Translations under genes and position numbers: made by a program
NCBI RefSeq assembly: GCF_000731675.1
Contig: NZ_JMIT01000001.1
Location: forward strand, 1,859,526 to 1,923,525
Length of the DNA: 64,000 nucleotides
From: Pseudomonas capeferrum
GTDB taxonomy: Bacteria > Pseudomonadota > Gammaproteobacteria > Pseudomonadales > Pseudomonadaceae
Reading direction: 5' to 3'
Shown here: positions 1 to 33,561 of the stretch, piece by piece
How positions within the stretch are numbered: the first letter of the stretch is position 1
Layout: each line of letters begins with the position of its first letter
Notes under the pieces: generated by a model
The model's database searches: none
Seen by the model: the letters and a program-made list of their open reading frames with translations, nothing else
What the model was told of the DNA's origin: nothing

Positions 1-237
1 GCGAATTCCGCTACCAAGGGCCGGCCGCCGACGCCCTGCAGCGCCTTGACCAACATGGCCTGGTCGCCTACGTCGGGACCTTCTCCAAGACCCTGTTGCA
101 GGAGTTGCGCCTGGGCTATGCGGTGCTGCCACCCGCCGTGCTGCAGGCCGCCTGCGTGGCCAAGCACCTCAGCGACTGGCACAGCCCGACCCTGCTGCAA
201 TGGGCCCTGGCCCGCTTCTTCAGCGATACTCTATAGT
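1..237 (+). pseudogene. MocR-family regulator, 5' piece (interrupted)
   Basis: The open frame from base 3 to the TAG at 235-237 encodes the late aminotransferase-like domain of a MocR/PdxR-type transcription factor (GntR DNA-binding head fused to a fold-type I aminotransferase). Visible marks are the segment VAYVGTFSKTLLQELRLGY, whose lysine in FSKT is the PLP-binding lysine of the family, and a following LLQWALARFF segment typical just before the final subdomain. After ARFFSD the frame runs into unrelated DNA and stops within two codons. The missing C-terminal end resumes at about 33,278 (ERILARLEGDL...). The gene head lies outside the window. Seen: the break. Known: family features. Inferred: disruption by the 33 kb insert. 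Confidence 0.85.
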
Positions 238-678
238 TAACAGCGAAAACCTTGTACTCTAGAGCTGCATGTGTACAGCCAGAAGATAGATATCTTAAAG
301 TGGCTGAGCATCAAATAGCTCGCCAAAACCTGACCATGGCATGACTCAAATGCCACCAACTTGGTTAGCTCAAGTGATTCATCAACCGAGAGAAATTAAA
401 CACTGGGTGCGGGCATCACGAACTGTGAGACTTCTGACTGTATAAGGCAGCCCTACTGGAGTAACGTATGAGTACTAAAGTCGCGGGGCTTTGGGCGGAA
501 ACTTCAAATTGCAGAGTAGTTTCTGAATAAGGCGACCTGATATGCAATCGACGAGCATATAGTTTTTTGTTGCTACCGAAATTTTGATTTAATAAAGGTC
601 AGGTGCGGCATGCACCATAACCATTCGTTAGATCACCATTACCCTCTCTAAGCGCTCTTGGCAAATTCCCAACTTCGG
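238..678. other. Non-coding left border of the insert
   Basis: This AT-richer stretch begins directly after the break in the MocR gene. I see no convincing gene. A 20-codon frame at 468 has a GGAG sequence before it but is too short to support. There is no tRNA, integrase or clear insertion-sequence end. The sequence change at about 230 marks the left edge of foreign DNA. Confidence 0.5.
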
Positions 679-1869
679 TTATTTTTTTGGAAATTTAACA
701 ATTCGTAGCCCCTCAAGCCGATCGATTTCTTTTTCAAGTTTTGCAACATGCCGTAACAACATGATTTCACGAGCAAGAATTTGGTCTACTTTTAATGGAT
801 CAAGCAGCTCGACTTGTTGTGTAGCCCAGCTAACCCACATTGCCAATGCCATTTGAGTTGCTTCGCCCGGAGGCGAAGCTTCGACTGCCGCCTGGATGAA
901 TGCTCGCAGCCCTTGAGCGCGCTCCCAGCTTTCCAGATTTCTCATCAGATTTTGACGCAGCTTCTCCAACCGACGCTGCTGGTCAATTCTCTCTGTGCGC
1001 ACTCGCTCCTCCTCTGCCCGTCGACGGCGACTAGCCTCATCGGATGATCGTTGGGCTTTCACGGAAGCGGCAATACGAACAAAGCCTGTAAGGATCTGAC
1101 CAAGCTTCGATTCGAGCGTCCCTGTTTTGCTGTCCGTCCAAGTTTTTTGAATCAGTACTTCGGATCGCGCGTCGACGATAAGGGAAAATACGCCAATGGG
1201 CTCCCGCCCAAAACGAGCGGCTCTCATCGCGGCAAAGTCAGGCTCCCATCGCTGCCCTGGCTTGAATGGTTTGGGAGGGGGCGGTGGAATATCGAAGCGT
1301 TTTATGCGCTCCTGGATCGTGATCAGTAGCTCTTCCCCGTCGACTCGCACGAAGCTAACGTTACTACCAATACCGCAGGTGTACCCCGACGACTCACTGG
1401 CTTTGATCAAGCTGTCGTAGAGAAGCGCGCAGCGATCCACCTCAGTCCGGGATATGTGCGAGTTCAATACCTTTGTTTTGTCGAATACCAGTGCATTGTT
1501 GAGCTCTTTGGCCTTCCTCGCTGCACTTAGGCATTTTTTTACCGACGGATGGGGGTCAGATAACTCCGTTGGCACGATCAACATCTTAGGGTTTTTGATC
1601 ACATTCTCTGGCTTCAGCCTGACAGCCTTCTCGACATTTAGAACGTGAAACGTGATTGGCGTGGTAGAGGTTGGAGGCTTTGGACGACGCGGGCGTTTCG
1701 GGGCTGGCTTGGCCCAGTGACCCCGGGTAGGCAACGTGATCCCCGCTTTGCGGTAGGCCTTCGATAAGCCCACATCCGAGATACCTATTTCCTTCGCGAT
1801 GATCTGAACGGGTCGCTCCCACACCATTTCAAATAGCTGCTGAGGTGTGAAGGTCTTTTCGACGTACAT
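679..1869 (-). CDS. Hypothetical protein with N-terminal HTH-like region
   Basis: A 396-residue protein of unknown function. The first 60 residues (LFEMVWERP...AKEIGISDVGLSKAYRK...LPTRGHWAK) match a recurring helix-turn-helix-like signature ending in a GYWAK-type motif, which I know from uncharacterised proteins of bacterial accessory regions. A basic proline-rich linker follows, and the C-terminal third is charged and probably coiled coil (residues about 280-330, RRRRAEEERVRTERIDQQRR). The start at 1869 is chosen because AAGGACGAG lies just upstream and the ATG overlaps the TAA of a preceding gene remnant (TAATG), indicating former translational coupling. It may be DNA-binding, but that is inferred from the N-terminus only. 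It does not resemble the catabolic genes to its right and may belong to a different ancestral element. Confidence 0.6.
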   Translation of the reverse strand: MYVEKTFTPQQLFEMVWERPVQIIAKEIGISDVGLSKAYRKAGITLPTRGHWAKPAPKRPRRPKPPTSTTPITFHVLNVEKAVRLKPENVIKNPKMLIVPTELSDPHPSVKKCLSAARKAKELNNALVFDKTKVLNSHISRTEVDRCALLYDSLIKASESSGYTCGIGSNVSFVRVDGEELLITIQERIKRFDIPPPPPKPFKPGQRWEPDFAAMRAARFGREPIGVFSLIVDARSEVLIQKTWTDSKTGTLESKLGQILTGFVRIAASVKAQRSSDEASRRRRAEEERVRTERIDQQRRLEKLRQNLMRNLESWERAQGLRAFIQAAVEASPPGEATQMALAMWVSWATQQVELLDPLKVDQILAREIMLLRHVAKLEKEIDRLEGLRIVKFPKK

Positions 1870-1976
1870 TACTCGTCCTTTGTGGCATCCAAAGCGTTGT
1901 ACCAATCAGCGTATGGCGAAAGGTCTACCCGACAGCGATTGTAGTCCGGGCTGCCGTCGTGCCACCAAACGGGCCA
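1869..1976 (-). pseudogene. C-terminal remnant of an unknown gene
   Basis: About 35 codons (WPVWWHDGSPDYNR...YADWYNALDATKDE, stop) run straight into the start codon of the HTH-like gene with a TAATG overlap. The composition, rich in W, Y and D, looks like a real protein tail rather than random sequence. Upstream of about 1976 it abuts a PQQ-dehydrogenase relic in another frame, so a recombination junction lies there. I do not recognise the parent protein. Confidence 0.4.
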
Positions 1977-2169
1977 ACCTTCCGACGTTTTGCGGAGTAA
2001 TCTGCTTGAGAGGACTGAAGCGCTGGGCATTATGGTCGCCCCCATAGAACGGCCAGTTTTGGCCAACTTGCGCTATTGATTGGGGCTGCTCCGCTTGAGC
2101 GAAGGATGCTAGCAATGCAGTGGAAATCGCGACGGCAAGGCCGCCGCTGCATGTGTAGGTGCAAGACAT
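1975..2169 (-). pseudogene. N-terminal relic of a PQQ-dependent dehydrogenase
   Basis: Translation from the ATG at 2169 gives a signal peptide (GGLAVAISTALLASFAQA) followed by NWPFYGGDHNAQRFSPLKQ and ITPQNVGRL. This matches almost residue for residue the N-terminus of the intact dehydrogenase at 30070-32100 (DWPFYGGDHNAQRFSPLKQ, then ITPANVGRL). Homology stops after GRL at about 1975, where unrelated DNA begins, so roughly 90 percent of the gene is gone. It lies in the opposite orientation to the intact copy. The two copies differ at many third codon positions, so this is an older homologue rather than a fresh duplication. Confidence 0.85.
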
Positions 2170-2180
2170 GAAATACCTCA

Positions 2181-2405
2181 TTACGCGTAACTGAGCGGGG
2201 CACGGCGCAAGGCCGGAGACAGGAGCAGAATCAACACCATGATGACAGTCATAGCGACCAGACGAGGTATCAGCCCCCACCAGTTCAGCCCTACCTCCCA
2301 CAGTGCCCACACTACGGTCAGGCCCTAGATCACTGCGAACAGATGGAGCGCGCCGCGCCGCCGCAGCGCGACCAACACCGGACATATCACTGAGCCGGTA
2401 CCAGG
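2181..2405 (-). pseudogene. Relic of PQQ-dehydrogenase membrane-anchor gene
   Basis: The minus strand encodes GALHLFAVI-stop-GLTVVWALWEVGLNWW, then GLIPRLVAMTVIM...SPALRRAPLSYA and a stop. This lines up with the C-terminal half of the intact 132-residue membrane protein at 29660-30058. A TAG replaces the conserved tryptophan codon of VIWGL, and the frame is disturbed further upstream, so it is a decayed copy. It sits immediately before the dehydrogenase relic, preserving the gene order of the intact locus. Confidence 0.8.
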
Positions 2406-2492
2406 CAATCGGGCCGTAGGTAGCAATGCTGAACCGTAATAGGAGTCTGCACCCTCTCCGGTTATCACCTGAAAATCTGCGGCAAACCTGCC

Positions 2493-2521
2493 TTGACAAA
2501 AAAACTGTGATCACATATCAC
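2493..2521 (+). promoter_or_regulatory. Promoter with embedded GntR operator (site 1)
   Basis: TTGACA (2493-2498), a 17-base spacer and TATCAC (2516-2521) form a sigma-70-like promoter reading toward the SDR gene at 2597. The palindrome TGTGATCACA (2506-2515) lies inside the spacer, where bound repressor would block polymerase. The same palindrome recurs at 4650, 4814 and 10704. Confidence 0.7.
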
Positions 2522-2596
2522 TTAATGAGTATTTCTTGTCTACGCACGTCGTAGCCAAGAAAACTCATTAACAAAAACAAGACAGGACGAATTGCT

Positions 2597-3385
2597 ATGA
2601 ACGTGATGAAGCGGCTAACACCCTATACCGGATTGAGGGTCTTGATTTCCGGTGGGGCAGCAGGCATTGGAGAATCGATCGCGGCTGCATATCTCGAAAT
2701 TGGGGCAAGAGTCCATGTATGTGATGTAAGCGAGCAGGCGATCGCAAAATTTCGTGAGTGCTATCCTGACGCTTTGGCCACGCTGGCTGATGTCTCCGAC
2801 TCTGCTCACGTGAAGCGCGTCTTCGAAATACAACAGGAGTGGGTGGGTGGACTCGATATACTGATCAACAACGCAGGCATCGCAGGGCCGACCGGGGGAA
2901 TCGACAAAATTAGCGATGCCGAGTGGGAACAGACAATAGACATCAACCTCAATGCACAGTATCGCTTCGCGCATCATGCTGTCCCCCTGCTGACGAAGTC
3001 AGAACACGCACACATCATTCACATCTCATCCGTCGCAGGGCGCCTAGGTTATGCTTGGCGGACTCCTTACGCGGCGACCAAATGGGCAATTGTAGGGCTG
3101 ATGAAGTCTCTGGCTGCAGAGTTGGGTGAAAGGGACATTCGAGTCAATGCACTACTACCAGGCATTGTCGAAGGCCCTCGACAGGATCGCGTCATCAGTG
3201 ATCGCGCCAGGCAGTTAGGAATCTCCGAGCCTGAAATGCTCGAACAAACGTTGAACAAAATATCATTACGCCGCATGACTCCACCGGAGGATGTGGCAGC
3301 AATGGCCTTATTTCTATGCTCTCCTGCCGCGCACAATGTGACAGGTCAAGCGATCAGCATCGACGGTAATGTCGAGTACCTGTGA
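2597..3385 (+). CDS. SDR-family oxidoreductase (module A)
   Basis: A 262-residue classical short-chain dehydrogenase. It shows the nucleotide-binding GGAAGIG (residues about 19-25), NNAG (about 92-95), a catalytic serine in ISSVAG, and YAATK as the YxxxK pair. It should oxidise a hydroxyl group or reduce a keto group with NAD(P)(H); the substrate is unknown. Start: ATG at 2597 with AGGA upstream. The promoter just upstream carries the GntR-type palindrome shared with the UxaA/BKACE operon, so I place it in the same pathway although it is 2 kb away and read from the other strand. Family assignment is firm; pathway role is inferred. Confidence 0.85.
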   Translation: MNVMKRLTPYTGLRVLISGGAAGIGESIAAAYLEIGARVHVCDVSEQAIAKFRECYPDALATLADVSDSAHVKRVFEIQQEWVGGLDILINNAGIAGPTGGIDKISDAEWEQTIDINLNAQYRFAHHAVPLLTKSEHAHIIHISSVAGRLGYAWRTPYAATKWAIVGLMKSLAAELGERDIRVNALLPGIVEGPRQDRVISDRARQLGISEPEMLEQTLNKISLRRMTPPEDVAAMALFLCSPAAHNVTGQAISIDGNVEYL

Positions 3386-3408
3386 TCAAGCTTTCGCAAT
3401 AGATTTAC

Positions 3409-3443
3409 AACGGCTCGCCCCTAGCCTAGTTGTCGAGCCGTTT
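3409..3443 (+). terminator. Hairpin after SDR
   Basis: AACGGCTCG and CGAGCCGTT form a 9-bp stem around a 16-base loop, followed by TTATT, shortly after the SDR stop codon. Probable rho-independent terminator. Confidence 0.6.
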
Positions 3444-3594
3444 ATTAAGCATGTGCATGTTTGAATGGCAAATTGCTTTCATACCACATCAGAACACTTA
3501 CACCGGATCACACCCCATTGAGCAGTGTGACACCGATAACGTCTGTTTCCTTTCCCGATGCCCAGAGGAATTTATTAATTCCTCATAGGCCAAT

Positions 3595-4137
3595 TTATTC
3601 TGTCGACCTCGAATCGCCGGCATCTACTGAAAGCTCTGCTAGAAAACGACTTGAATTAGCAACGTATCCCTGTGCGTTGGCCCGCAGTCCAGCTTGCTGT
3701 TCCTCGCTAAGTGTGCGAACCACCTTGGCAGGCGAGCCCAGCACCAATGACCCATCCGGGATGACCATTTTCTCGGTGACAAGCGCCTTGGCGCCAATGA
3801 GGCAGTTCGCACCTATGATTGCCCCATTCAAGACCACCGCTTGGATCCCGATCAAACTACCATCTCCGACTTGGCATCCATGGAGCATGGCCTGGTGGCC
3901 GACAGTGACATCCTTCCCCAGCGTCAACGGAAAACCAGGGTCGGTATGAAGAACTGCTCCATCCTGGATATTGGAGCCTGCACCGATGTGTATCAGTTCG
4001 TTGTCCCCACGAATCACTGCGCCGAACCAGACGCTGGATCCTTCTGCCAGATGCACTTGGCCAATGACTGCAGCCGTCGGTGCTATCCAACTCTGCGGAT
4101 GCGCTTGAACGCTGACGTCGCTCAATCGATATTTCAT
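3595..4137 (-). CDS. Gamma-carbonic-anhydrase-like hexapeptide protein
   Basis: A 180-residue left-handed beta-helix protein with repeated hexapeptide units ([55 protein letters not shown]). The spaced histidines of LHTDPG, VGHQ and LHGC occupy the zinc-ligand positions of gamma-carbonic anhydrases and of the PaaY/CaiE/YrdA group. Such proteins often sit in CoA-linked catabolic operons, where PaaY has thioesterase activity, so carbonic anhydrase activity should not be assumed. It lies between the SDR and the GntR regulator of module A; a copy of the operator palindrome lies about 510 bp upstream of its start. Start: ATG at 4137 after a GGGAGTGA sequence. Confidence 0.8.
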
Positions 4138-4649
4138 AGATCACTCCCATTTTTTGTGATTTAGGTCGGCGCGGTGACGCTTGTTTGCAATGGTGTTGCA
4201 AGCTACTGAAAAAACAACTCCTAAGCGCATGCCCAAACGAATGGGCGGTCTTAGGTTGATGAGAAAAAGCTAGGCTGGTCCCTGCGCAGGTAGTGTTGGT
4301 CGCGACTGAGAATGCCTGCGACAGAGGCCCACACTGCGACTCCGACTACCCATAAACGGCGTACTGCATTTCTGCGTGGGCAGTGCCTCATGCTCCACCC
4401 AATCTGGTGACCACTGGGATAGTTCTCCTCGATAGCACGTGTGCAAGTGCGCTGTGCAACGTAGAGATGTGTCGAGCGAGCGCATTCTTTGGAGAAAATT
4501 GCGCAGCAGTGTGGCGAGAAGGCTATCCACGATAGAGCCTGTCCAAGCGAACCCACAGCTGAAGTGCGCTCATGACCGTCCTCCAGTCCGATTTTTATTT
4601 ATGCCGATGCTATCGACTTGACTCTGAGCCTACCCTGCACACAGTGATA

Positions 4650-4659
4650 TGTGATCACA
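4650..4659. promoter_or_regulatory. GntR operator, site 2
   Basis: TGTGATCACA with flanks AGTGATA upstream and G downstream. With its flanks it is nearly the exact reverse complement of site 1 (ACTGTGATCACATATCACT against AGTGATATGTGATCACAGT), suggesting an inverted arrangement serving the minus-strand gene at 3595-4137. Confidence 0.65.
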
Positions 4660-4813
4660 GTATTGAGTGATAAACAAGAATGGTTTCGACGGTAAGAAGG
4701 CCGATGAGCTAGCTCCGGCATTTATCCACCCGGATAACGACGAACTCGAGCAAGACGCAGCTTCCTGTCGAAAAACGGGACAGCGCCTTACGATTTTATA
4801 GCGCCATCACTGC

Positions 4814-4823
4814 TGTGATCACA
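4814..4823. promoter_or_regulatory. GntR operator, site 3 (autoregulatory)
   Basis: CTGTGATCACAG (4813-4824), a perfect 12-base palindrome 50 bases before the GntR start codon. Its position suggests that the regulator controls its own gene. Confidence 0.65.
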
Positions 4824-4873
4824 GATGCCTTATTGTTCTATGCCCAAGGGTTGAATCTGCTTATACTCACTCC

Positions 4874-5593
4874 ATGAACATATCCACACTCGTAACGCCC
4901 ATGATCCGCCAGACCCTCAGTGCGGACGTTTATGCCCAGCTGCGTGATCTGCTGATAAGTGGACGCGTTATGCCTGGGGAAAAGCTCTCCCTCAGATCTC
5001 TCGCGGACGCTCTAGGTGTTAGCGTCATGCCTGTGCGAGAGGCTGTTCACAGGTTGGTCGCTGAGCAAGCGCTTGAAATGGCGGCTAATCGATATATTCG
5101 CGTTCCTGTACTGACAGTCAGCCAATTCCGGGAAATCACCAGTATCCGGTTGAATCTGGAGGGGCAAGCTGCCGCTCGTGCTGCCGAGCTTGTTGATTCG
5201 CAGACGCTGGCTGAGATAGAAAAGATACACGAGGCATTTTGCGCGGAGTTTGCAAAAGGCGCTCCCGATGAGTCACGGCTGATTACACTGAATAAAGAAT
5301 TGCATTTCGCAATTTATAACCAGGCGGACATGCCCATCCTGCTCCAGATAGTTGAGTCCTTGTGGCTGAGAATAGGGCCTATCATCAACTATGACCTACG
5401 ATCTGGCACTGAGCGTGTGGTTCAGCGAGTGCAAGCCAGTCATCACGCAGCGATGGTTGATGCTTTAAAGAAGGGGGACTCCGTTGCCGCCCGTGAATCG
5501 CTGCAAGATGACATCAAAAGTGCTGCCGAGTTTATCCTGAATACAGGGGCGCTGATCGTTGCCGATGCGCACAAACCTGTAGAAGCTGATTAA
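4874..5593 (+). CDS. GntR-family regulator, FCD subfamily
   Basis: A 239-residue regulator. The N-terminal winged helix (residues about 12-75: SADVYAQLRDLLISGRVMPG, then LSLRSLADALGVSVMPVREA) is typical GntR. The C-terminal all-helical FCD domain (about 85-225) shows the expected acid/histidine metal-ligand pattern, with HFAIYNQAD and SHHAAMVDAL. FCD regulators usually sense organic acids, often through a bound metal, and repress divergent catabolic operons. A perfect palindrome TGTGATCACA lies upstream of this gene and of three others in the module, so it is the natural candidate to bind them. It converges on the uxaA-like gene across a shared terminator. There is no strong Shine-Dalgarno before the ATG at 4874; a later in-frame ATG at 4901 is possible. 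Confidence 0.88.
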   Translation: MNISTLVTPMIRQTLSADVYAQLRDLLISGRVMPGEKLSLRSLADALGVSVMPVREAVHRLVAEQALEMAANRYIRVPVLTVSQFREITSIRLNLEGQAAARAAELVDSQTLAEIEKIHEAFCAEFAKGAPDESRLITLNKELHFAIYNQADMPILLQIVESLWLRIGPIINYDLRSGTERVVQRVQASHHAAMVDALKKGDSVAARESLQDDIKSAAEFILNTGALIVADAHKPVEAD

Positions 5594-5610
5594 ATCCACC
5601 AACATGTTTT

Positions 5611-5648
5611 AAAAAGAGTCGCCCTGGTATCAGGGCGACTCTTTTTTT
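5611..5648. terminator. Bidirectional terminator
   Basis: A 16-bp perfect stem (AAAAAGAGTCGCCCTG, loop GTAT, complementary arm) with A and T runs on both sides, placed between the convergent gntR and uxaA-like genes. It should stop transcription in both directions. Confidence 0.92.
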
Positions 5649-5657
5649 GCTCGCTTA

Positions 5658-7184
5658 TTACATCTGAGCGCCGATCATCCAAGGCACTGTTTCTTCATTG
5701 CCGACGCCCAACGCCTCGCTTTTAGATTTTTCCCCAGAAGCCACGCGTATGAGCATGTCGAAAATCTCTTTACCCTTCGATTCAAGGGTGGCACCGCCAT
5801 CCATGACATCCCCGCAGTTGATGTCCATATCATCCTTCATGCGAGTGTACATTTTGGTATTAGTCGCAAGCTTGATCGAAGGAGCAGGTTTGGCGCCAAA
5901 GCACGAGCCGCGTCCGGTGGTGAACGCAACGAGATTTGCGCCGCTGGCGATTTGGCCAGTGGCACCCATAGGATCATAGCCAGGCGCATCCATGAACACC
6001 AAGCCTCGGACTGTAATGGGCTCGGCATAACGATAAACGCCCATGAGTGCTGACGAACCACTTTTGGCAACTGCGCCTAGAGACTTTTCAAGAATGGTCG
6101 TCAGGCCGCCGGCCTTGTTACCAGGCGTGGGGTTGTTATCGATACTGCCTTTTTCGCGGTCTGCGTAGCTTTCCCACCATTTGATAAGGTCGACGATACC
6201 CTGGCCGACCTCACGGGTTGCAGCGCGACGAGTTAGCAGGTGTTCAGCACCGTAGATCTCCGGCGTTTCGCTAAGGATGGCCGTTCCACCTTGCGCTACG
6301 AGCATATCGACAGCCACACCGAGGGCGGGGTTGGCCGTGATGCCCGAATATCCGTCTGAACCGCCGCACTGGAGCGCAACGGTCAGGTGCCGCGCCGAGA
6401 CCGGCTCGCGTCGGCACTCGTTGGCAACCGGCAGCATCAATTCCACAGCGGCAATGGCGGCATCCGCTGCCTTGCGGGTTCCGCCAACGTCTTGGATGAC
6501 CACAGGAGCGATAAGCTTGCCGGTATCGATGCCCTGGGCCATGAACAGCGCGCCCATCTGGTTGGCTTCACAGCCAAGGCCGATGACAACCACGCCAGCG
6601 AAGTTGGCGTGCTTGATGAACCCGCCTAGCGTGCGCCGCAGTTGGTTCACCCCCTCGCCATTGTGCTCTATGCAGCAACCGAAGCTGTGGGTGATCGGCA
6701 CCACACCGTCCACGTTTGGGTAAGCATCCAGCACACCGTTTCGCGAGAAGTGTTCAACCACCATTTTGGTAACAGTGGAGGAGCAGTTCACCGTGCTTAC
6801 TACCCCAATGTAGTTTCGAGTTGCTACTCGCCCGTCAGCGCGGACGAAACCTTGGAATGTCACAGGAGAGGCTGCAGGCGACGCGACTTTGGCATCCTCG
6901 CCGAACGCGTAGTCTCGGTCGAACGTCGCCATCTCCAGATTGTGCGTATGCACATAATCGCCTGGCTCAATGGATTTAGTAGCAAAGCCAATAATCTGGC
7001 CGTAACGCAGAACAGGATCACCTGGGTTTACGTGTGCAAGGGCAATCTTGTGCGCTGCGGGGACATCGGCGAACACCACGATATTACCGAACTCCGTAAC
7101 CACGGTTCCTTGAGGTATCGAAGCACGTGCGATTGCAACGTTGTCGTCGGGATGTAGTTTAAGTACCAGGGATGTACTCTTCAT
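5658..7184 (-). CDS. UxaA/GarD-family sugar-acid dehydratase
   Basis: A 508-residue enzyme of the altronate/galactarate dehydratase family, full length: an N-terminal SAF-type domain (residues 1 to about 90) joined to the iron-dependent catalytic part. Family segments seen include GFVRADGRVATRNYIGV, ITHSFGCC, GLGCEANQ, LQCGGSDGYSGITANPA and TGRGSCFGAKPAPSIKL. Members remove water from C2/C3 of aldonic or aldaric acids to give 2-keto-3-deoxy acids. It is last of a minus-strand operon with a BKACE enzyme, a 3-hydroxyacid dehydrogenase and a transporter. Its start overlaps the stop of the transporter gene (ATGA), so the two are translationally coupled. The substrate is not determined. Confidence 0.88.
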   Translation of the reverse strand: MKSTSLVLKLHPDDNVAIARASIPQGTVVTEFGNIVVFADVPAAHKIALAHVNPGDPVLRYGQIIGFATKSIEPGDYVHTHNLEMATFDRDYAFGEDAKVASPAASPVTFQGFVRADGRVATRNYIGVVSTVNCSSTVTKMVVEHFSRNGVLDAYPNVDGVVPITHSFGCCIEHNGEGVNQLRRTLGGFIKHANFAGVVVIGLGCEANQMGALFMAQGIDTGKLIAPVVIQDVGGTRKAADAAIAAVELMLPVANECRREPVSARHLTVALQCGGSDGYSGITANPALGVAVDMLVAQGGTAILSETPEIYGAEHLLTRRAATREVGQGIVDLIKWWESYADREKGSIDNNPTPGNKAGGLTTILEKSLGAVAKSGSSALMGVYRYAEPITVRGLVFMDAPGYDPMGATGQIASGANLVAFTTGRGSCFGAKPAPSIKLATNTKMYTRMKDDMDINCGDVMDGGATLESKGKEIFDMLIRVASGEKSKSEALGVGNEETVPWMIGAQM

Positions 7185-8551
7185 TTTGTCCTCGCATTAT
7201 CAGTAATACACGGCGCAACCTGGGACAATACAATGTTGTCCCGCGTTTTTGTAGTAATCGTTTCTTGTGCCTGACGTAGTTTCAAACTCAGGAATGCGGC
7301 GAGCGTTAAAAGAGCCGCTACAATGATGAGTCCATTCTTCGTACTCCCAGTAGTTTGCTCAACGAAGCCAAGAAGTGAAGGGCCGAAGAAGCCACCAGTA
7401 ATACCAAAGGTATTCACTAACGCCAGACCCGCCGCCATACCTACTCCCGCCAGCCTTGAGCTGGCGAAGAGAAATATCACAGGCTGAACAACGAAAAACA
7501 TCGATGCCGTAAGGGTAAATCCTATTAGTGCTATCAGTGGAGTGGTATAGGCCGCGAGGGTCAATCCAGCCGACATCAGGAGCAGACCACCGAACATTAT
7601 TTTGCGTGAGATTTTCGGAGTAGTTGCATACTTTGGAAGAAACGCTGCGCCGAGTGCTGCTGCTATCCATGGGATTGAGTTTAACAATCCTATCTGTAGC
7701 GATGACAAGCCTCCATACGTGCCGATGATGCCGGGCAAGAAGAAAATTACTGAATAAACACTAACTTGGTGGAGGAAGTACACCGCAATAGCAAGCCAAA
7801 TTTGAGGGATTTTAAGAACACCCTTAAAAGAATGACCAACATTGCCGGAGGCGATTTCTTCATCATGTTCTTTTTTCAGAACTTGCTCTACTTCAGTGGC
7901 TTGTTCCTTTGATAGCCAAGTTGCCGTAGATGGGCCGTCCGGAAGCTTTCGCCAAATCACGACGGAGAATAGAACAGCTGGAATTCCCTCCAAGAAGAAC
8001 AGCCACTGCCAGCCGTGCCAACCCCAGATTCCATCCATCTCTAACAGCAGCCCGCCAACCGGCCCGCTGATGATGTTCGCGAGACAGACCCCGATTAGAA
8101 AATAGCCACTTGCACGTGCCCTTTGCTCACGACCAAACCAATAGGTTAAATAGAGCATTACACCTGGGAACAATCCGGCTTCAGCTGCGCCCAGTAGTGC
8201 GCGGGCAATGTAAAACGTAGTCTCATCGGTAATGAAGGCCATACCGGCAGACAACAACCCCCAGGTGATCATGATCCTGGTGATCCAGAGTCGGGCACCT
8301 ACCCGATGCATGATCAGGTTACTAGGTACCTCCATGAGTGCATAGGTAAGGAAGAAGAGCCCTGCACCGAAACCGTAGGCGGCAGCGGAAATACCCAAGT
8401 CTACTGCCATGTGTGTTTTGGCAAGTGAAATGTTAGTTCTGTCTAGAAAGCTTATAATGTAAGCAACAATTAACATCGGCATCAATTTGCGAAACATTAA
8501 AGCGTTCAGCGACTGTCCCTTTTGTGTTTTTGTATGGGTCGTAGCTAACAT
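7181..8551 (-). CDS. MFS transporter, anion:cation symporter type
   Basis: A 456-residue inner-membrane permease with about 12 hydrophobic segments. The beginning (LMPMLIVAYIISFLDRTNISLAK) and GAAEAGLFPGVMLYLTYWF are typical of the ACS family, which takes up organic acids such as phthalate, hexuronates, galactarate and 4-hydroxyphenylacetate. It lies between the BKACE gene and the uxaA-like gene on the minus strand and very probably imports the acid handled by module A. Start at 8551 follows GAGGAGAAC. Family and topology are clear; the substrate is inferred only from context. Confidence 0.88.
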   Translation of the reverse strand: MLATTHTKTQKGQSLNALMFRKLMPMLIVAYIISFLDRTNISLAKTHMAVDLGISAAAYGFGAGLFFLTYALMEVPSNLIMHRVGARLWITRIMITWGLLSAGMAFITDETTFYIARALLGAAEAGLFPGVMLYLTYWFGREQRARASGYFLIGVCLANIISGPVGGLLLEMDGIWGWHGWQWLFFLEGIPAVLFSVVIWRKLPDGPSTATWLSKEQATEVEQVLKKEHDEEIASGNVGHSFKGVLKIPQIWLAIAVYFLHQVSVYSVIFFLPGIIGTYGGLSSLQIGLLNSIPWIAAALGAAFLPKYATTPKISRKIMFGGLLLMSAGLTLAAYTTPLIALIGFTLTASMFFVVQPVIFLFASSRLAGVGMAAGLALVNTFGITGGFFGPSLLGFVEQTTGSTKNGLIIVAALLTLAAFLSLKLRQAQETITTKTRDNIVLSQVAPCITDNARTK

Positions 8552-8661
8552 GATTCATGTTCTCCTCATGAGGATAAATTGCTAAGGCGCGAGTGTTGTG
8601 CCGCGACCTTTAGTTATCAAAATATCCTCTAGATAGGCTTTACGGGGATGAATACCCGCGT

Positions 8662-26192: not shown

Positions 26193-26195
26193 TGG

Positions 26196-26208
26196 TGAAT
26201 CCGATTCA
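26196..26208. promoter_or_regulatory. Candidate LysR box (T-N11-A)
   Basis: TGAATC, C, GATTCA: perfect 13-base palindrome fitting the T-N11-A LysR rule. The related sequence ACTGATGAATCC...TCAGT at 26286-26308 may be a second contact site closer to the transketolase promoter. Confidence 0.55.
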
Positions 26209-26342
26209 TTAACTGACGAATTTAAACCTTTTGTCGACCCTGTATTTTTACCTGATCATCAAGGGGTTACTCAATACGACTGGGTACTGATGAATCCGTT
26301 GCGTCAGTAACTCCGGATCGCTGGTCACCAATGGAGAACAAT

Positions 26343-27200
26343 ATGACCGAGAGTCGCAATGAGCACTTTGCCCGGATGTCGAAGCACGCCTGGCGCATTC
26401 GTCGCTTCGCCCTACGCATGGGCGAGGTTCAGGGCCAAGGCTATGTTGGCCAGGCACTGGGCTGGGCCGACGTACTGGCTGTTGCCTACTGCCACGCCAT
26501 GAACATTCGCGCTGATCAACCTGAATGGGAAGGCCGCGATCGTTTCCTGCTTTCCCATGGGCACTACGCCATCGCGCTTTACGCAGCGCTGTTGGAGGCC
26601 GGCGTTCTGCCGGAGGAGGAGCTGGAAACTTATGGCTCCGATGATAGCCGCCTGCCGATGTCGGGCATGGCGACCTACACACCCGGCATGGAAATCTCTG
26701 GTGGCTCCCTTGGCCAAGGGTTGGCTATTGCTGTAGGCCAGGCGCTGGGCCTGCGCATGAAGGGCAACGATGCGTTCGTCTACAACTCGATGTCCGATGG
26801 CGAGCTGGACGAGGGAGCGGTGTGGGAAGCTGCCATGTCAGCCTCGCACCACAAGCTGGGCAACCTGATCAATCTGGTGGACATCAACCGCCAGCAGGCA
26901 GACGGCCCTTCCCACGACATCCTCCAATTCGAACCCCTCGTCGATAAGTGGGCAGCGTTCGGTTGGCACGTGCAGCGCGTCGACGGCAATGACCTGCAGG
27001 CTGTGATCCAGGCCTTCGACCTCGCGCGGTCGGTACAGGGCGACAAGCCGCGAGTCATTCTCTTCGACACCCTCATGGGTAAAGGTGTCCCGTTCCTTGA
27101 GCAACGTGACAAGAACCACTTCATCCGGGTCGAGCCACAGGAGTGGCAGCATGCACTTGCAGACCTCGATGAGATCCACGCGCCAAGGAGCCCACAATGA
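26343..27200 (+). CDS. Transketolase, N-terminal (TPP-binding) subunit
   Basis: A 285-residue protein equal to the first domain of transketolase. It has HGHYAIALYAALLEAGVL (substrate/TPP histidines), GGSLGQGLAIAVGQALG, and the thiamine-diphosphate motif SDGELDEG...LINLVDINRQQADG. Two-subunit transketolases are common in archaea and in catabolic clusters, where they move a C2 ketol unit between unusual sugars. Start chosen at 26343 (ATGACC) with GGAG 7 bases upstream. The second subunit starts within the stop codon of this gene (ATGA). It is the first gene of a plus-strand run: transketolase, transporter, PQQ dehydrogenase, SDR. Confidence 0.9.
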   Translation: MTESRNEHFARMSKHAWRIRRFALRMGEVQGQGYVGQALGWADVLAVAYCHAMNIRADQPEWEGRDRFLLSHGHYAIALYAALLEAGVLPEEELETYGSDDSRLPMSGMATYTPGMEISGGSLGQGLAIAVGQALGLRMKGNDAFVYNSMSDGELDEGAVWEAAMSASHHKLGNLINLVDINRQQADGPSHDILQFEPLVDKWAAFGWHVQRVDGNDLQAVIQAFDLARSVQGDKPRVILFDTLMGKGVPFLEQRDKNHFIRVEPQEWQHALADLDEIHAPRSPQ

Positions 27201-28198
27201 CCGCCGCTTCTCCAGTCAAGCCGAAACTCACCACGTCGTCGATGATCGCATCCATCGCCAGCGAGGGTCAGCGCACCACATCTGCGCCCTTTGGGCACAC
27301 CTTGGTAAAGGCCGGCCAGAAAAATCCACGCATCGTCGGGATGACTGCGGATCTGGCCAAGTACACCGACTTACATATCTTCGCCCAACGTTATCCAGAG
27401 CGATTCCTGCAGATGGGTATGGCAGAGCAACTGCTCATGGCTGCGGCTGGAGGCATGGCAAAAGAAGGTTTCGTACCGTTCGCCACCACCTATGCGGTAT
27501 TCGCCACTCGCCGAGCTTATGACTTCATTCATCAGGTAATCGCTGAAGAGAACCTGAACGTGAAGATCTGTGCGGCGCTGCCGGGCCTGACTACCGGCTA
27601 TGGCCCAAGCCATCAAGCCACCGAAGACTTGGCGATGATGCGAGCAATCCCCCAGATGACGGTCATCGATCCTTGTGATGCACTGGAGACGGAGCAATGT
27701 GTAGCCGCGATAGCGGAGCACAACGGCCCGGTCTACATGCGCCTACCCCGCGGACGCGTGCCCCTCGTCCTCGATGAGTACGACTACAAATTCGAGTTGG
27801 GCAAAGCCAGGTTGCTGCGTGACGGCAAGGATGTGCTGATCATCTCCTCGGGCCTCATGACCATGCGCGCCCTTGAAGTAGCAGACGAACTGGCCAAAAA
27901 CACAATCGACACCGCGGTCTTGCACGTGCCGACGATCAAGCCGCTCGATGTCGAGACCGTCCTGGAACAATGTCGCCGCGAAGGCCGGCTGGTTGTCATC
28001 GCGGAAAACCACACCCAGATCGGTGGCCTCGGTGAGGCCATAGCCATGGCGTTGCTACTAGCCCGCGTGCAACCGGAGGTTCGCCACGTGGCGCTCCCTG
28101 ACCAGTTCCTGGATGCAGGTGCGCTGCCGACCCTCCATGACCGCTACGGCATTTCCAAAGAAGTCATGGTCGCAAACATCCAGCGTTGGCTGGGCTGA
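27197..28198 (+). CDS. Transketolase, C-terminal subunit
   Basis: A 333-residue partner subunit carrying the pyrimidine-binding domain (IVGMTADLAKYTDLHIFAQR, ERFLQMGMAEQLLMAAAGGM with the catalytic glutamate in AEQ, and KICAALPGLTTGYGPSHQAT) and the C-terminal transketolase domain (VLIISSGLMTMRALEVADEL). With the upstream subunit it makes a complete transketolase. The C-terminal part ends close to the usual length. Chromosomal tktA, expected elsewhere in the genome, would be a single polypeptide, so this is an accessory enzyme. Confidence 0.9.
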   Translation: MTAASPVKPKLTTSSMIASIASEGQRTTSAPFGHTLVKAGQKNPRIVGMTADLAKYTDLHIFAQRYPERFLQMGMAEQLLMAAAGGMAKEGFVPFATTYAVFATRRAYDFIHQVIAEENLNVKICAALPGLTTGYGPSHQATEDLAMMRAIPQMTVIDPCDALETEQCVAAIAEHNGPVYMRLPRGRVPLVLDEYDYKFELGKARLLRDGKDVLIISSGLMTMRALEVADELAKNTIDTAVLHVPTIKPLDVETVLEQCRREGRLVVIAENHTQIGGLGEAIAMALLLARVQPEVRHVALPDQFLDAGALPTLHDRYGISKEVMVANIQRWLG

Positions 28199-28326
28199 TC
28201 GACTGCTGATGTGCGATGGCCGCTCACACCGCGTTGCCCACTGCCTGGGCAAGGTGAGCGAGCCATTGTGCCGGCAGCCCTCGTTTCTCGTCCCTGGATC
28301 GTCCCTATAACTACAAGGTGATGGCG

Positions 28327-29628
28327 ATGCACAAAGACACCAGTCTCCTGAAGAAAAAACGTGTTTGGATCTACGCGTTTCTCTTCACCCTGACTCTGAT
28401 CAACTACGTTGACCGAGTTTCGCTTTCGGTTGCCTCCAAAGTGCTCAAGGAAGAATTCGATATCTCGCCGGTTGCGATGGGCTACCTTTTCTCGTCATTC
28501 GTATGGCTCTACTTTCTGGCCCTCATCCCCATGGGCTACCTCGTAGGCCGCTTTGGCCCTAAAAAGGTCAACGGTTACGGCATAGGGGTATGGTCGGTAG
28601 CCACGGCCTGCACCGCATTGTCGACCGGGTTCATTTCTTTGCTCAGCTGCCGACTAATCATGGGCATGGGCGAAGCCACCACCTACCCTGCCGGCGCGCG
28701 TGTAATCCGCGAATGGATGCCACTCAAAGAGCGTGGCATGGCTACTGCTGTATTCCACAGCGGCAGCTTGGTAGGCCCAGCCATCGGCGCCATTGGCTTT
28801 GGCTGGCTGATCAGCGCGTTTGGCTGGCGCATCGCCTTTGTCGTAGCCGGCGCGTTGGGCTTCCTTTGGCTAGCTGCCTGGTTGAAGTGGTACAGCCACC
28901 CTGCAAAAGCTCCATGGCTTGAGGATGCCGAACGCGCGGAGATTGCTGAAGGTAGCGTCTCACACGGGGCAGAGCCGGCGCAGGCTGTGTCGCTTGGCCT
29001 CAAGGGCCTGGCACGCTCCAGCAGCATGTGGGCGATTGCCCTGTCGCATGGGTGCGCAGTGTATGCCACCTACTTTTTCCTGACCTGGCTGCCGACCTAC
29101 CTCCAGGCTGAAAAAGGCCTGACGGTGATGTCCAGCGGCATCTACACCGCCATTCCGTACCTTGGTGCGGCCATTCTCGCCATCGTCATTGGCCGCCTGA
29201 GTGACAAGGCGATGCGCCCAGGTGCAGCCGAAACCGGACAGCGTCGCATGGTGGTGGCAAGTGTGTTGCTCGCCTCCTCGGTCATCTTTCTGGTGCCAGC
29301 GATCGACAGCACCTGGTCAATTCTCTTCGTGATCACGCTGTCGTTGGCGACCTGCGCTTCGGCGATTTCTCTGAACCTCTCGCTTGTGAATGACTTGGTG
29401 CGCTCTGAAGACGACGTCGGCACTGCAGCTGGCTTTATCACTGCAGTCGGCAATCTGTTCGGTCTCCTCGCTCCGATCGTGACTGGCTACGTGGTGGCCG
29501 GCTCTGGCAGCTTCGCCTTGGCCTTCGTCGTCGTCGGCGCATTACTTGTGATCGGCTCAGTCCTCTCGATGTTCTGCACGCGTCGGCCCATCGGCTTTGC
29601 AGCCTCCGGCAAACAGGCCATAGCCTGA
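28327..29628 (+). CDS. MFS transporter, ACS-like (module E)
   Basis: A 433-residue permease with 12 predicted membrane segments. The opening TLTLINYVDRVSLSVASKVL and GMGEATTYPAGARVIREWMP are typical of the sugar-acid branch of the anion:cation symporters. Start at 28327 is preferred because AAGGTG lies 8 bases before it; an ATG at 28321 is too close to that site. It lies between transketolase and the PQQ dehydrogenase pair and would import the acid formed in the periplasm by the dehydrogenase. Confidence 0.86.
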   Translation: MHKDTSLLKKKRVWIYAFLFTLTLINYVDRVSLSVASKVLKEEFDISPVAMGYLFSSFVWLYFLALIPMGYLVGRFGPKKVNGYGIGVWSVATACTALSTGFISLLSCRLIMGMGEATTYPAGARVIREWMPLKERGMATAVFHSGSLVGPAIGAIGFGWLISAFGWRIAFVVAGALGFLWLAAWLKWYSHPAKAPWLEDAERAEIAEGSVSHGAEPAQAVSLGLKGLARSSSMWAIALSHGCAVYATYFFLTWLPTYLQAEKGLTVMSSGIYTAIPYLGAAILAIVIGRLSDKAMRPGAAETGQRRMVVASVLLASSVIFLVPAIDSTWSILFVITLSLATCASAISLNLSLVNDLVRSEDDVGTAAGFITAVGNLFGLLAPIVTGYVVAGSGSFALAFVVVGALLVIGSVLSMFCTRRPIGFAASGKQAIA

Positions 29629-29659
29629 ATCAATAGCAAATTAAGGAAGTAGTAGCGTC

Positions 29660-30058
29660 ATGAATCAACGTAGTAGTGAATCCCGCAGCAACGGCCGGGC
29701 CTCGGCTGGTCACAGCGGGAAATGGCGGCTGGCGACCGTCGTTTTAGCCCTGGCGCTGGGGGCATTTGGCATGGCCCTTTTTGGCGGCGGGGTATGGCTG
29801 ATGGCTTTGGGCGGTAGCTGGTATTACACCCTCACCGGGGCCGGCTGTGTAATCACAGCTGTCATGCTGTGGCGGCAACGATTTGGCGCCTTGTACCTGT
29901 TCGCCGTGATCTGGGGCCTGACACTGATCTGGGCTTTATGGGAAGTCGGACTCAACTGGTGGGGGCTTGTACCACGTCTGGTGGCAATCACCGTCATCCT
30001 GTTGTTGATCCTTGCCGTGTCGCCGTCACTGCGTCGCGCCCCCCGCTCTGCTGCGTAA
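29660..30058 (+). CDS. Membrane anchor of PQQ dehydrogenase
   Basis: A 132-residue protein with four hydrophobic helices (VVLALALGAFGMALFGGGVW, YYTLTGAGCVITAVML, ALYLFAVIWGLTLIWALWEV, LVAITVILLLILAV). The segment LIWALWEVGLNWWGLVPR is the signature of the membrane domain at the front of glucose/quinate dehydrogenases (GCD, QuiA). Here that domain is a separate gene, 11 bp before the catalytic gene, so the normal one-chain enzyme is split into two polypeptides. A decayed homologue exists at 2181-2405. Confidence 0.85.
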   Translation: MNQRSSESRSNGRASAGHSGKWRLATVVLALALGAFGMALFGGGVWLMALGGSWYYTLTGAGCVITAVMLWRQRFGALYLFAVIWGLTLIWALWEVGLNWWGLVPRLVAITVILLLILAVSPSLRRAPRSAA

Positions 30059-30069
30059 AGAGGTTTGTC

Positions 30070-32100
30070 ATGTTCCTATCAGTCAAATGCAGAAGCGCAC
30101 TGGCGCTCGCCGTTTCTTGCGCGCTTCAGGTGCAGATCGCTCAAGCTCAGGGTATGCCGCAGGTCGGCAGCGATTGGCCGTTCTATGGCGGTGATCACAA
30201 CGCTCAGCGCTTTAGCCCCCTCAAGCAGATCACCCCAGCAAACGTTGGGCGCCTGGAGCGCGCATTTGTGTATCACACACGGGACTTACCGAATCCGGGC
30301 AGTCGCTACTCGCCTGAAACAACCCCGGTCAAGGTCGGCAACGACCTGCTGATGTGCTCTGCTAAAAACATCCTTATTTCGATCAATGCTGCAACCGGCA
30401 AGGAAAACTGGCGTCACGACCCTGGAGTACCTGATCAGGCAATTCCTCACGCAGCAGCATGCCGCGGCGTGGCGGTGTACACCGCGCCAGAGATCCCTGA
30501 GTCCGCACAATGCCGCAGCCGTGTGGTAGAGGCGACACTGGATGCGAGGCTGGTAGCTGTAGATCTGCGCACGGGCGAGCCTTGCAAGGACTTCGGACAG
30601 AACGGCACTGTGGATCTTTGGGAAGGTCTGGGCAAAAAAGTCCCCGGCTGGTACGCGGTTACAGCTCCTCCTACTATCGTCAATGGCGTGGTGGTCACAG
30701 GAGCACAAATTCGTGACGGTCAGGATGAGGACGCACCTTCTGGGGTGATTCGCGGCTACGACGCGGTCAACGGGAAAATGGCCTGGGCTTGGGATCTGGG
30801 TAACCCTGAAAACGTTCATGGCCCAGCCGAAGGCAGCACCTACACCCGTGGCACCCCGAATATGTGGACGGCTGCAGTGGGCGATGAGCAGCTTGGCTAC
30901 GTCTACCTGCCGATCAGCAACTCCTCAATTGATTACTACGGCTCCAACCGTAGCGAGGAAGAAAACAAGTATTCGACCTCACTGGTGGCCGTCGACGTGA
31001 AGACGGGCAAGGACGTATGGCACTTCCAGACCATCCGCCATGATGTGTGGGATTATGATCTGGGCAGTCAGCCAACCCTTCTTGATTTCCCTGATAAGGA
31101 CGGAAAACCAGTGGCTGCAGTGCTGCTGCCGACGAAGCAGGGTGACATCTACATCCTGGATCGCGCAACTGGCGAGCCTCTGGTTCCGATTGGTGAAGTC
31201 AAGGCACCAAAAGGCGGCTCCGTTGAACCCCAATTCCTGGCTAATACTCAACCTACCTCCGAGTGGCACACTCTACGCAAGGCGCCGAAAACCGAAGCGG
31301 ACATGTGGGGCTTCTCACCACTCGATCAGTTGATGTGCCGCATCCAGTTCCGCCAGGCCAACTACGAAGGCTACCTGACGCCGCCATCGGTGGATCGTCC
31401 CTGGATTCAATACCCGGGCTACAACGGTGGCTCCGATTGGGGCTCGGTCGCGATCGACCCAGTTCGACGACTTCTAATCGCCAACTACAACGACATCCCC
31501 AACCTTAACCAGCTCATACCACGTGTACAGGCGGACAAGTTGGGGCTCAAACCTATCTATGCGCCAAAGGTTGATGAGACCTCGCTGAACAAGGCTGGCA
31601 GCAAATCGGGCAAGGGCGAAGGTGGGGCATCGGCCTATCCGCAGGTCAACGCGCCTTACGCGATCAGTGTGAATGCGGGATGGCGTAACTGGGGCACCGG
31701 CGTACCGTGCTCGGCACCACCGTATGGCGGAATTCGTGCAATCAGCCTGGATACCGGCAAGACCGTGTGGGACGAGCCGCTGGGTACCGCACGTCGCAAC
31801 GGGCCTTTCGGCATCCCGTCGCATCTGCCACTGAATATCGGCTTGCCAAACAATGGCGGAACGGTGGTCACCGCAGGTGGACTCACCTTCGTCGGCGCGG
31901 CGACTGACAACTTGTTCCGTGCCATCGACACAGCTACCGGTGAGGTGCTGTGGGAAGACGTATTGACGGCAGGCGCCCAAGCCAACCCGATCTCGTACGA
32001 GGTTGATGGTGAGCAGTATGTGCTCGTCTCAGCGTCTGGCCACGCCTTCATGGAAACCGGCACCAGCGACGAAATCATCGCATACAAGCTGCGTAAGTAA
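30070..32100 (+). CDS. PQQ-dependent dehydrogenase, GCD/quinate type
   Basis: A 676-residue periplasmic quinoprotein. A signal peptide (about residues 1-26, ALALAVSCALQVQIAQA) is followed by WPFYGGDHNAQRFSPLKQIT and an eight-bladed propeller with family segments PTIVNGVVVTGAQIRDGQDE, AWAWDLG, QTIRHDVWDYDLGSQPTLLD and the PQQ-contact region GGIRAISLDTGK...NGPFGIPSHLPLNIG. Known members oxidise glucose, quinate, inositol or other polyols and pass electrons to ubiquinone. The membrane part comes from the preceding gene. The enzyme needs PQQ made elsewhere in the genome. The C-terminus (GTSDEIIAYKL) is intact. Substrate unknown; context suggests a polyol or sugar later handled by transketolase. 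Confidence 0.9.
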   Translation: MFLSVKCRSALALAVSCALQVQIAQAQGMPQVGSDWPFYGGDHNAQRFSPLKQITPANVGRLERAFVYHTRDLPNPGSRYSPETTPVKVGNDLLMCSAKNILISINAATGKENWRHDPGVPDQAIPHAAACRGVAVYTAPEIPESAQCRSRVVEATLDARLVAVDLRTGEPCKDFGQNGTVDLWEGLGKKVPGWYAVTAPPTIVNGVVVTGAQIRDGQDEDAPSGVIRGYDAVNGKMAWAWDLGNPENVHGPAEGSTYTRGTPNMWTAAVGDEQLGYVYLPISNSSIDYYGSNRSEEENKYSTSLVAVDVKTGKDVWHFQTIRHDVWDYDLGSQPTLLDFPDKDGKPVAAVLLPTKQGDIYILDRATGEPLVPIGEVKAPKGGSVEPQFLANTQPTSEWHTLRKAPKTEADMWGFSPLDQLMCRIQFRQANYEGYLTPPSVDRPWIQYPGYNGGSDWGSVAIDPVRRLLIANYNDIPNLNQLIPRVQADKLGLKPIYAPKVDETSLNKAGSKSGKGEGGASAYPQVNAPYAISVNAGWRNWGTGVPCSAPPYGGIRAISLDTGKTVWDEPLGTARRNGPFGIPSHLPLNIGLPNNGGTVVTAGGLTFVGAATDNLFRAIDTATGEVLWEDVLTAGAQANPISYEVDGEQYVLVSASGHAFMETGTSDEIIAYKLRK

Positions 32101-32106
32101 TGCCTT

Positions 32107-32130
32107 GACGGGGCCCGCTTGGGCCCCGTC
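32107..32130. terminator. Hairpin between dehydrogenase and SDR
   Basis: GACGGGGCCC, loop GCTT, GGGCCCCGTC: a perfect 10-bp stem 7 bases after the stop codon, followed by TTGACA. Terminator, or a structure that lowers expression of the SDR. Confidence 0.7.
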
Positions 32131-32159
32131 TTGACACTGATTCACAGAGGAGTTTAATC

Positions 32160-32912
32160 ATGGATTTGGGCTTGCAAGGTAAACGCGTACTGGTGAGCGG
32201 CGCTTCCAGGGGTATCGGGCGGGCAATTGCCAAATTGTTTCTCGATGAGGGCGCCAAGGTGGCCTTCTGTGCTCGGGGTACCGCAGGCGTCCAAACGACG
32301 CAACAAGCACTCGGTCATGACGCCATCGGTACCGCCGTTGATGTCACCCAGCCCGAACAGGTGCAGGCCTGGGTCACGGATGCAGCGCAGCGTCTTGGAG
32401 GAATCGATATCGTCGTGCCGAACGTCAGTGCTTTGGCTGGCGGAGATGACTTGCAGACATGGCGACGAGCCTTCGACACCGATTTACTGGGAAGTGCGAC
32501 GATGGTCAAAGCCGCCTTGCCCGCCCTGCGTCAATCGCAAGCCGCATCGGTTGTCCTAATTTCCAGCGTATCGGGCCGCGAAGTCGATATGTTCGCGGAG
32601 CCATACGGTGTACTGAAAGCAGCATTGCTGCACTACAGTAAAACGCTTTCTGCACGCCATGCGCGCGAAGGTATTCGGGTGAACTCTGTCTCCCCAGGAA
32701 ACGTGTATTTTCCGGAGGGCGTATGGGGTGACATAAAGCGCGACCAGCCCGAGACCTTCGCGAAATGCCTAGCTGAAAACCCGTTGGGCCGCATGGCTAC
32801 ACCCGAGGAAGTAGCCAAAGCAGTCGTATTCCTGGCCAGCCCTGCTGCAAGCTTTACCACCGGCACGAACTTGCTCGTGGATGGCGGGCTGACACGCTCG
32901 GTTCAGTTCTGA
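32160..32912 (+). CDS. SDR-family oxidoreductase (module E)
   Basis: A 250-residue short-chain dehydrogenase: SGASRGIG at the N-terminus, PNVSAL where most members have NNAG, ISSVSG with the catalytic serine, and YGVLKAA as YxxxK. The strong site GAGGAGT precedes the ATG. Last catabolic gene of the insert, separated from the PQQ dehydrogenase by a hairpin. Substitution of NNAG by PNVS is found in several SDR subgroups and does not itself imply loss of function. Confidence 0.85.
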   Translation: MDLGLQGKRVLVSGASRGIGRAIAKLFLDEGAKVAFCARGTAGVQTTQQALGHDAIGTAVDVTQPEQVQAWVTDAAQRLGGIDIVVPNVSALAGGDDLQTWRRAFDTDLLGSATMVKAALPALRQSQAASVVLISSVSGREVDMFAEPYGVLKAALLHYSKTLSARHAREGIRVNSVSPGNVYFPEGVWGDIKRDQPETFAKCLAENPLGRMATPEEVAKAVVFLASPAASFTTGTNLLVDGGLTRSVQF

Positions 32913-32976
32913 GCACCCAGGCCCAACGGTAGTAATCTGAATAAGATTTGAATGATGAAACTCTATATCTACGAAC

Positions 32977-33277
32977 TGAATCGCCCCTGGTTTCCTAGAC
33001 ACCTCCAAGCCTCATAATGAGGCCCAAATAGGAGGTGCCATGAGTCGTCAGCGTTAAGATCGAAGCGGTCAAGCAAGTGACCGAGAAAGGCAAACCCGTC
33101 GCCGATGTCGCCCAGCGCCTGGGCATGTCCGTGCACAGCCTTTATGCCTGGATCAAGGTCTACAGCAAGCCCCAAGAGCAGCGTCAGCAAGACGACGATC
33201 AGCAGGCCGAACTGCGCAAGCTGCGCGCTGAACTCAAGCGCGTGACGGAAGAGCGAGACATCTTAAAAAAGGCCGCC
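32977..33277 (+). mobile_element. IS3-family insertion sequence remnant
   Basis: The remnant begins with a terminal-repeat-like TGAATCGCCCCTGGTTTCCT at 32977, resembling the TGAACCGCCCCGGGTTTCCTG ends of IS3-family elements in pseudomonads. It runs through a partial orfA up to about 33,277, where chromosomal MocR sequence resumes. The orfB transposase and the right end are gone, so it cannot move by itself. It marks the right border of the foreign DNA. Confidence 0.8.
33040..33277 (+). pseudogene. IS3-family orfA, broken at both ends
   Basis: The original start is ATG at 33040 (MSRQR), but TAA follows at once. After a frame shift the protein continues as KIEAVKQVTEKGKPVADVAQ, RLGMSVHSLYAWIKVYSKP and LRAELKRVTEERDILKKAAA, the HTH and leucine-zipper parts of an IS3 OrfA. 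A few codons between MSRQR and KIEAV are missing, consistent with a small deletion. At the C-terminus the expected YFAK tail is replaced by MocR sequence. Non-functional. Confidence 0.85.
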
Positions 33278-33561
33278 GCGAACGCATCCTCGCGCGCCTG
33301 GAGGGCGACCTGGCGCCTTGGTTCAGCGCCATACCGGCCAGCGCCGGTTTCCACCTGAGTGCGCTGGCAAAGCCTGGGGTGGATGTCGAACTGCTGGCCA
33401 ACCTCGCACGCAAGGTGGAGGTCGGCCTCTATTCGCTGGCACCGTTTTTCAGCGAGGTGCCGGTGCGTCCCGGGCTGGTGCTAGGCTTTGGCGCCATCGA
33501 GCTGCTCGACATCGACACCGCGCTCGACCGCGTCCGCGATACCCTGCAACGCCTCAGTTGA
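33278..33561 (+). pseudogene. MocR-family regulator, 3' piece
   Basis: The frame reads (R)ERILARLEGDLAPWFSAI, SAGFHLSALAKPGVDVELLA, VEVGLYSLAPFFSEV, GLVLGFGAIELLDIDTALDR and RDTLQRLS with a TGA at 33559. This is the small C-terminal subdomain of a MocR regulator and continues the piece at 1-237. Comparing with family members, roughly 15-20 residues are missing between the pieces, so insertion was accompanied by a small deletion. There is no start codon of its own. Confidence 0.85.

Follow-up and report, generated by a model that had tools for sequence, protein, structure and literature searches.

We identified an insert of 33,046 bp that splits a MocR-type regulator gene in the chromosome of Pseudomonas capeferrum, within a stretch of 64,000 nt (G000:C1:1859526-1923525; the whole stretch is called the window below). 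The insert is mosaic in structure, with different Pseudomonas genomes matching its different pieces, and 48 bp of the target gene are absent at the site. At its right junction lies the stump of an IS3-family insertion sequence (IS), whose last bases fit both the IS and the MocR gene. We tentatively favor, at a little short of even chances, the reading that the mosaic was joined into the gene by illegitimate recombination (at microhomology or by Ku/LigD end joining) and not by a site-specific integrase; a two-step history, discussed below, fits nearly as well.

The MocR-type gene starts upstream of the window (at about L082:13656), and its N-terminal and middle part, of which positions 1-226 (forward strand) fall in the window, carries the GntR and aminotransferase class I/II domains (Pfam) that define this type of regulator. 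The C-terminal piece, of 95 residues, lies at 33,273-33,561 on the same strand; it matches no Pfam family by itself, so we assigned it to the MocR gene by DNA similarity and position. For comparison we gathered 80 loci via the neighboring major facilitator superfamily (MFS) gene. Both pieces are matched in 54 of these loci, and in all 54 they belong to one uninterrupted gene with nothing inserted at the site; the remaining loci (24 matching neither piece, and two, L018 and L053, matching the right piece only) are mostly more distant relatives or end-of-contig cases. A sequence-only reading of the window had proposed that a single MocR gene was split by about 33 kb, with both pieces in the same orientation, and that aligning the pieces with intact MocR genes of relatives should reveal an uninterrupted allele; this comparison bore out both points. 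It also bore out the expectation that 15-20 codons would be missing, since the pieces are separated in the relatives by 48 bp in 51 loci and by 47 bp in three (alignment ends extrapolated), and the 48 absent bp correspond to 16 lost codons. The boundaries given in that reading needed correction: the left frame was said to end at 237, while similarity to the intact genes stops at 226 and the frame then runs into the insert to a TAG at 234-236; the right piece was said to resume at about 33,278, while similarity begins at 33,273 (its frame ends with a TGA at 33,559-33,561). The closest relatives are only about 84-87% identical over the MocR region, so an empty site from the same species is not available for comparison.

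Compared with the single, intact GntR/aminotransferase genes of the relatives, the gene in the window is cut past the middle of the aminotransferase domain, and its product would lack about 110 C-terminal residues. Against 10 relatives chosen from the 54, the left and right pieces have ratios of nonsynonymous to synonymous substitution rates of 0.04-0.10 and 0.03-0.08, respectively, similar to the 0.06-0.08 of the intact MFS neighbor. No decay is thus detectable in the pieces, pointing to a recent event, although the measured divergence mostly arose before it. In L018 (P. monteilii NBRC 103158), the middle of this MocR gene has apparently been lost in a separate event, which suggests that the gene may be dispensable in this group. 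Interruption of a gene by a foreign island is ordinary; what is unusual here is a mosaic without mobility genes, the loss of 48 bp of the target, and an overlap with an IS stump.

The IS stump occupies 32,977-33,280 (forward strand) and corresponds to positions 1-318 of an element of 1,232 bp, with an internal deletion of 14 bp. Its assignment to the IS3 family follows from the match of this part to the left end and first reading frame of an intact copy (94%); a complete element with both ends was not found in the genome. Copies on plasmids are up to 94% identical and share the same left end, and records named ISPsy29 match at 75-76%; two plasmid copies were inspected, and a 3-bp flanking repeat (AAG) is present in only one of them. 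Unlike these copies, the stump lacks 914 of the 1,232 bp in addition to the 14-bp deletion, and so would not move by itself. Its last eight bases (CCGCCGCG, 33,273-33,280, forward strand) are also the start of the right MocR piece. We measured this shared run as IS/MocR identity ending at IS position 318, with 56 relatives standing in for the strain's own ancestral gene: the run is 10 bp long in five relatives, 8 bp in 16, 7 bp in 10, and 4 bp in 17, so that 48 of the 56 share 4-10 bp, and the other eight share 0-1 bp. Random joins of the same IS with the MocR gene of one relative (L007) gave at least 4 bp in 2.0% of cases and at least 8 bp in 0.02%.

A second stump of the same IS is found in this genome at G000:C1:1014876-1015163 (L144), about 880 kb from the first; it is cut at IS position 300, at most 20 bases from the cut in the window stump. 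Other stumps also end close to the A6 motif of the IS, and we therefore considered this motif as a hotspot of truncation. We dropped the idea because the stumps end at different bases, apart from L204, which seems to have been split by an ISL3-family element, with more of the IS on its far side.

The mosaic make-up of the insert was established in a sample of 398 Pseudomonas genomes (including the strain's own genome; a sample and not the whole genus), in which each genome was scored at one or two candidate places, so that weaker second copies could escape. The genomes carrying the segment at 785-1975, those carrying a left-hand catabolic block (module B, between 2,407 and 24,634), and those carrying a right-hand block (module C, 25,318-32,976) are three sets that do not overlap, and no other genome in the sample matched both modules. 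In a search of 331 genomes of the same pool with the B-C boundary, 22 other genomes match one side (E < 1e-150), and none matches both. The sequence-only reading had described one uniform catabolic insert, which gives way here to a mosaic with scraps between the modules; the deviating composition that it noted holds, with a guanine-plus-cytosine (GC) content in 1-kb windows that ranges from 0.48 to 0.60 up to 33 kb and from 0.57 to 0.69 beyond it.

No integrase or transposase family was found among 29 open reading frames (ORFs) of the insert scanned with Pfam (short and overlapping ORFs lay outside the scan), and there is no transfer RNA (tRNA) gene in the 64-kb window. Comparison of the two ends of the insert (181-1000 against 32,901-33,340) gave only four matches, of 9-10 bp; positions 1-1000 contain no direct repeats, only two 12-nt inverted pairs, and plasmid records have no match to 228-25000 or 200-2420. 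The earlier statement that no integrase, attachment-site (att) repeat, or tRNA is visible therefore stands for the scanned ORFs, the ends, and the window, and is to be qualified by a trace of a mobile element, the IS3-family stump exactly at the right junction. With no integrase in these ORFs, no tRNA or att repeat, and 48 bp of the target lost, we rejected a plain island of the integrative and conjugative element (ICE) or integrase type. We also rejected a composite transposon: there are no two flanking IS copies, only the single stump at the right end and the other about 880 kb off. Both Ku and LigD are encoded in the same genome; bacterial end joining is carried out mainly by these two proteins, as stated in PMC7719229, whose reference list cites work on Ku and LigD in P. 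putida.

Joining at microhomology or by end joining is favored because the scanned ORFs of the insert include no integrase or transposase, there is no tRNA, the ends share only matches of 9-10 bp, and Ku and LigD are present. The inner boundaries of the insert also end in gene scraps, which we count for this reading, together with the uninterrupted gene of the 54 relatives, the length of the shared run compared with random joins, and the lack of detectable decay in the MocR pieces. Under this reading, the mosaic would have been assembled before entry. A chromosomal break in the MocR gene, losing 48 bp, would then have captured a linear piece of foreign DNA that ended, on its right, within the IS, and the right join would have been made at CCGCCGCG. 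The block may have been retained since it made new carbon sources usable (3-oxo acids through module B and a sugar- or polyol-like compound through module C, both predicted), with loss of the regulator tolerated. A stricter version, which we consider unlikely, is a single end-joining event in which the break in the regulator was repaired with 33 kb of foreign, already patchworked DNA, so that entire pathways would be transferred horizontally with no integrase, transposase, or homologous anchor; the inner scraps would then be traces of earlier captures of the same kind.

Several observations weigh against joining by illegitimate recombination. The shared run is just 1 bp in six of the 56 relatives and 0 bp in two, and all of these counts come from relatives and not from the strain's own ancestral letters. 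At the left join, positions 227-784 have no match from which an element terminus or microhomology could be read. The IS stump at the right join also fits a later deletion that trimmed a larger element. Finally, we did not find a one-step capture of 33 kb by end joining described in the literature searched, as far as titles and the openings of abstracts tell; by the same titles and abstract openings, none of the literature matches listed describes an integrase-less catabolic island with microhomology.

The last but one of these points leads to a two-step history, a serious possibility that we still hold to be short of probable: the mosaic would have arrived on a larger mobile element that integrated into the MocR gene at the left join, and a deletion running from the IS into that gene would afterward have taken away the right part of the element, integrase or transposase included, together with 48 bp of the target. 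One ordinary deletion would in this way explain why only a stump of the IS is left, why the overlap is short, and why 48 bp and the mobility genes are missing. It is for this reason that the earlier conclusion of an entry not by simple ICE integration fits the data and yet is unproven, as such a deletion could have removed the integrase of a larger element along with the rest of its right part. Set against this, the left end shows no recognizable element terminus, no repeat in common with the right end, and no match in plasmid records, and no remainder of a larger element was seen.

An entry driven by the IS itself, by homologous recombination between IS3-family copies in the MocR gene and in the incoming DNA followed by deletions that left one stump, is improbable. 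The stump at the junction would fit it, as would a decayed copy of the 5′ end of the same IS found in one genome (G245) some 1 kb downstream of module C. At the left join, however, we found neither a copy nor a remnant of an IS, and none of the 54 relatives has an insertion at the MocR site; in the strain's own genome, the 3′ part of the IS is absent except for end-repeat matches at the two stumps and 26 bases at the right junction. Mis-assembly of the join between MocR and insert is very improbable: the right join does fall in an IS, where assemblies often go wrong, and was judged from the assembly and not from reads, but the contig that holds the junctions in its middle is 2.8 Mb long and one of eight in the assembly, the MocR pieces flank the insert in the correct order and orientation, and neither the missing MocR stretch (searched as a 26-base pattern with up to three mismatches) nor the remainder of the IS is found elsewhere in the assembly.

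The insert resembles genomic islands and ICEs of Pseudomonas (the ICEclc type) in being a large foreign catabolic block of deviating GC content in the chromosome; it differs from them in having no integrase (in the ORFs scanned), tRNA target, or att repeat, and in lying inside a protein-coding gene with loss of target sequence. Insertions by homology-facilitated illegitimate recombination or end joining resemble it in the loss of target bases and in a short overlap at a join, which here is read at the right join from most but not all of the relatives; unlike them, the insert has no homologous anchor that we could find on either side, and we judge 33 kb to be very large for such an event. Catabolic clusters often appear in different Pseudomonas species without a visible vehicle, and if end joining can install tens of kilobases, the transfer of a pathway would need no mobile element. 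Since the target boundaries are exact to the base, the target gene is apparently losable, the overlap at the right join is readable, and the modules occur separately in other genomes, the entry of integrase-less islands can be tested here at one site.

The insert begins on the left with a spacer (227-784) for which neither the 397 other sample genomes, nor the rest of the strain's own genome, nor plasmids gave a match. The following segment (785-1975, reverse strand) belongs to a hypothetical gene of the P. putida group (ORF 679-1905), identified by DNA matches of 74-90% in four genomes and by protein relatives; the gene loses its native end beyond 785, where other sequence takes its place. 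We considered this gene as the mobility gene of the island and dropped the idea for three reasons. Its protein has 149 relatives, of which 120 are listed; those named by their source are mostly hypothetical proteins, although three of the listed ones (P0017, P0018, and P0030) carry the UniRef name “Transposase”. Among 10 neighboring ORFs scanned in two loci (L145 and L147), the only mobility gene is a DDE transposase, in L147. The copy in the window, moreover, is broken at 785. The broken start of a pyrroloquinoline quinone (PQQ)-dependent dehydrogenase gene follows at 1982-2345 (reverse strand).

Module B begins with a left part (2407-3386, forward strand) that contains a short-chain dehydrogenase/reductase (SDR) gene and is 88-90% identical in six genomes (G062, G101, G247, G337, G365, and G373) and in G275. 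The next stretch (3387-4814), with a hexapeptide-transferase-like ORF at 3595-4137, is unmatched in the six main carriers; parts of it are found in G277 at 75-78%. The main part (4815-24634) is 95% identical in the six genomes and 87-94% in G277, and is matched up to 10,220 in G275; G277 (75-94% over most of the module) and G275 (2407-3386 and 4815-10220) are thus partial carriers. The main part encodes members of the GntR, altronate/galactarate-dehydratase-like, MFS (two genes), beta-keto acid cleavage enzyme, 3-hydroxyacyl-CoA dehydrogenase, and hydrolase families, as well as a luciferase-like oxidoreductase, a cyclase, a glycerol-dehydrogenase-like protein, an SDR, and regulators. Four of these matched curated models above the cut-off: a 3,5-dioxohexanoate-type beta-keto acid cleavage enzyme (536 vs. 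430 bits), 3-hydroxyacyl-CoA dehydrogenase (476 vs. 347 bits), the luciferase-like oxidoreductase TIGR03571 (393 vs. 304 bits), and a member of the glycerol-dehydrogenase subfamily (403 vs. 336 bits). From these matches, the predicted role of module B is the breakdown of 3-oxo acids or related lactones.

Module B is itself part of a unit of about 25.7 kb that recurs, largely with different flanks, in the six main carriers and in G277. Carriers of the whole unit, compared in pairs, are about 94-99% identical, except that the left part of G277 reaches only 81-88%. Where the right end is preserved (six genomes), the unit stops within the final ∼45 bp of an mvaT-like gene (HGSxTVESWLT), and the body of this gene is kept next to that end in only some genomes. 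In the right flanks of G062 and G337, an IS3-type left end (TGAATCGCCCC...TCTAGACACC) starts 20 bases past the right end of module B (position 36,720 of the G062 stretch).

A mostly unmatched spacer (24635-25317) separates module B from module C (25318-32976), which encodes a LysR regulator on the reverse strand and, on the forward strand, a transketolase in two genes, an MFS transporter, a PQQ dehydrogenase, and an SDR. Judging from these gene families, module C is predicted to serve the use of a sugar- or polyol-like compound. It is matched at 88, 80, and 75% in G245, G009, and G308, respectively, and the match to G245 stops at 32,976, precisely where the IS starts; the decayed copy of the IS 5′ end in that genome is located on G245:C1 (L158:10187-10416).

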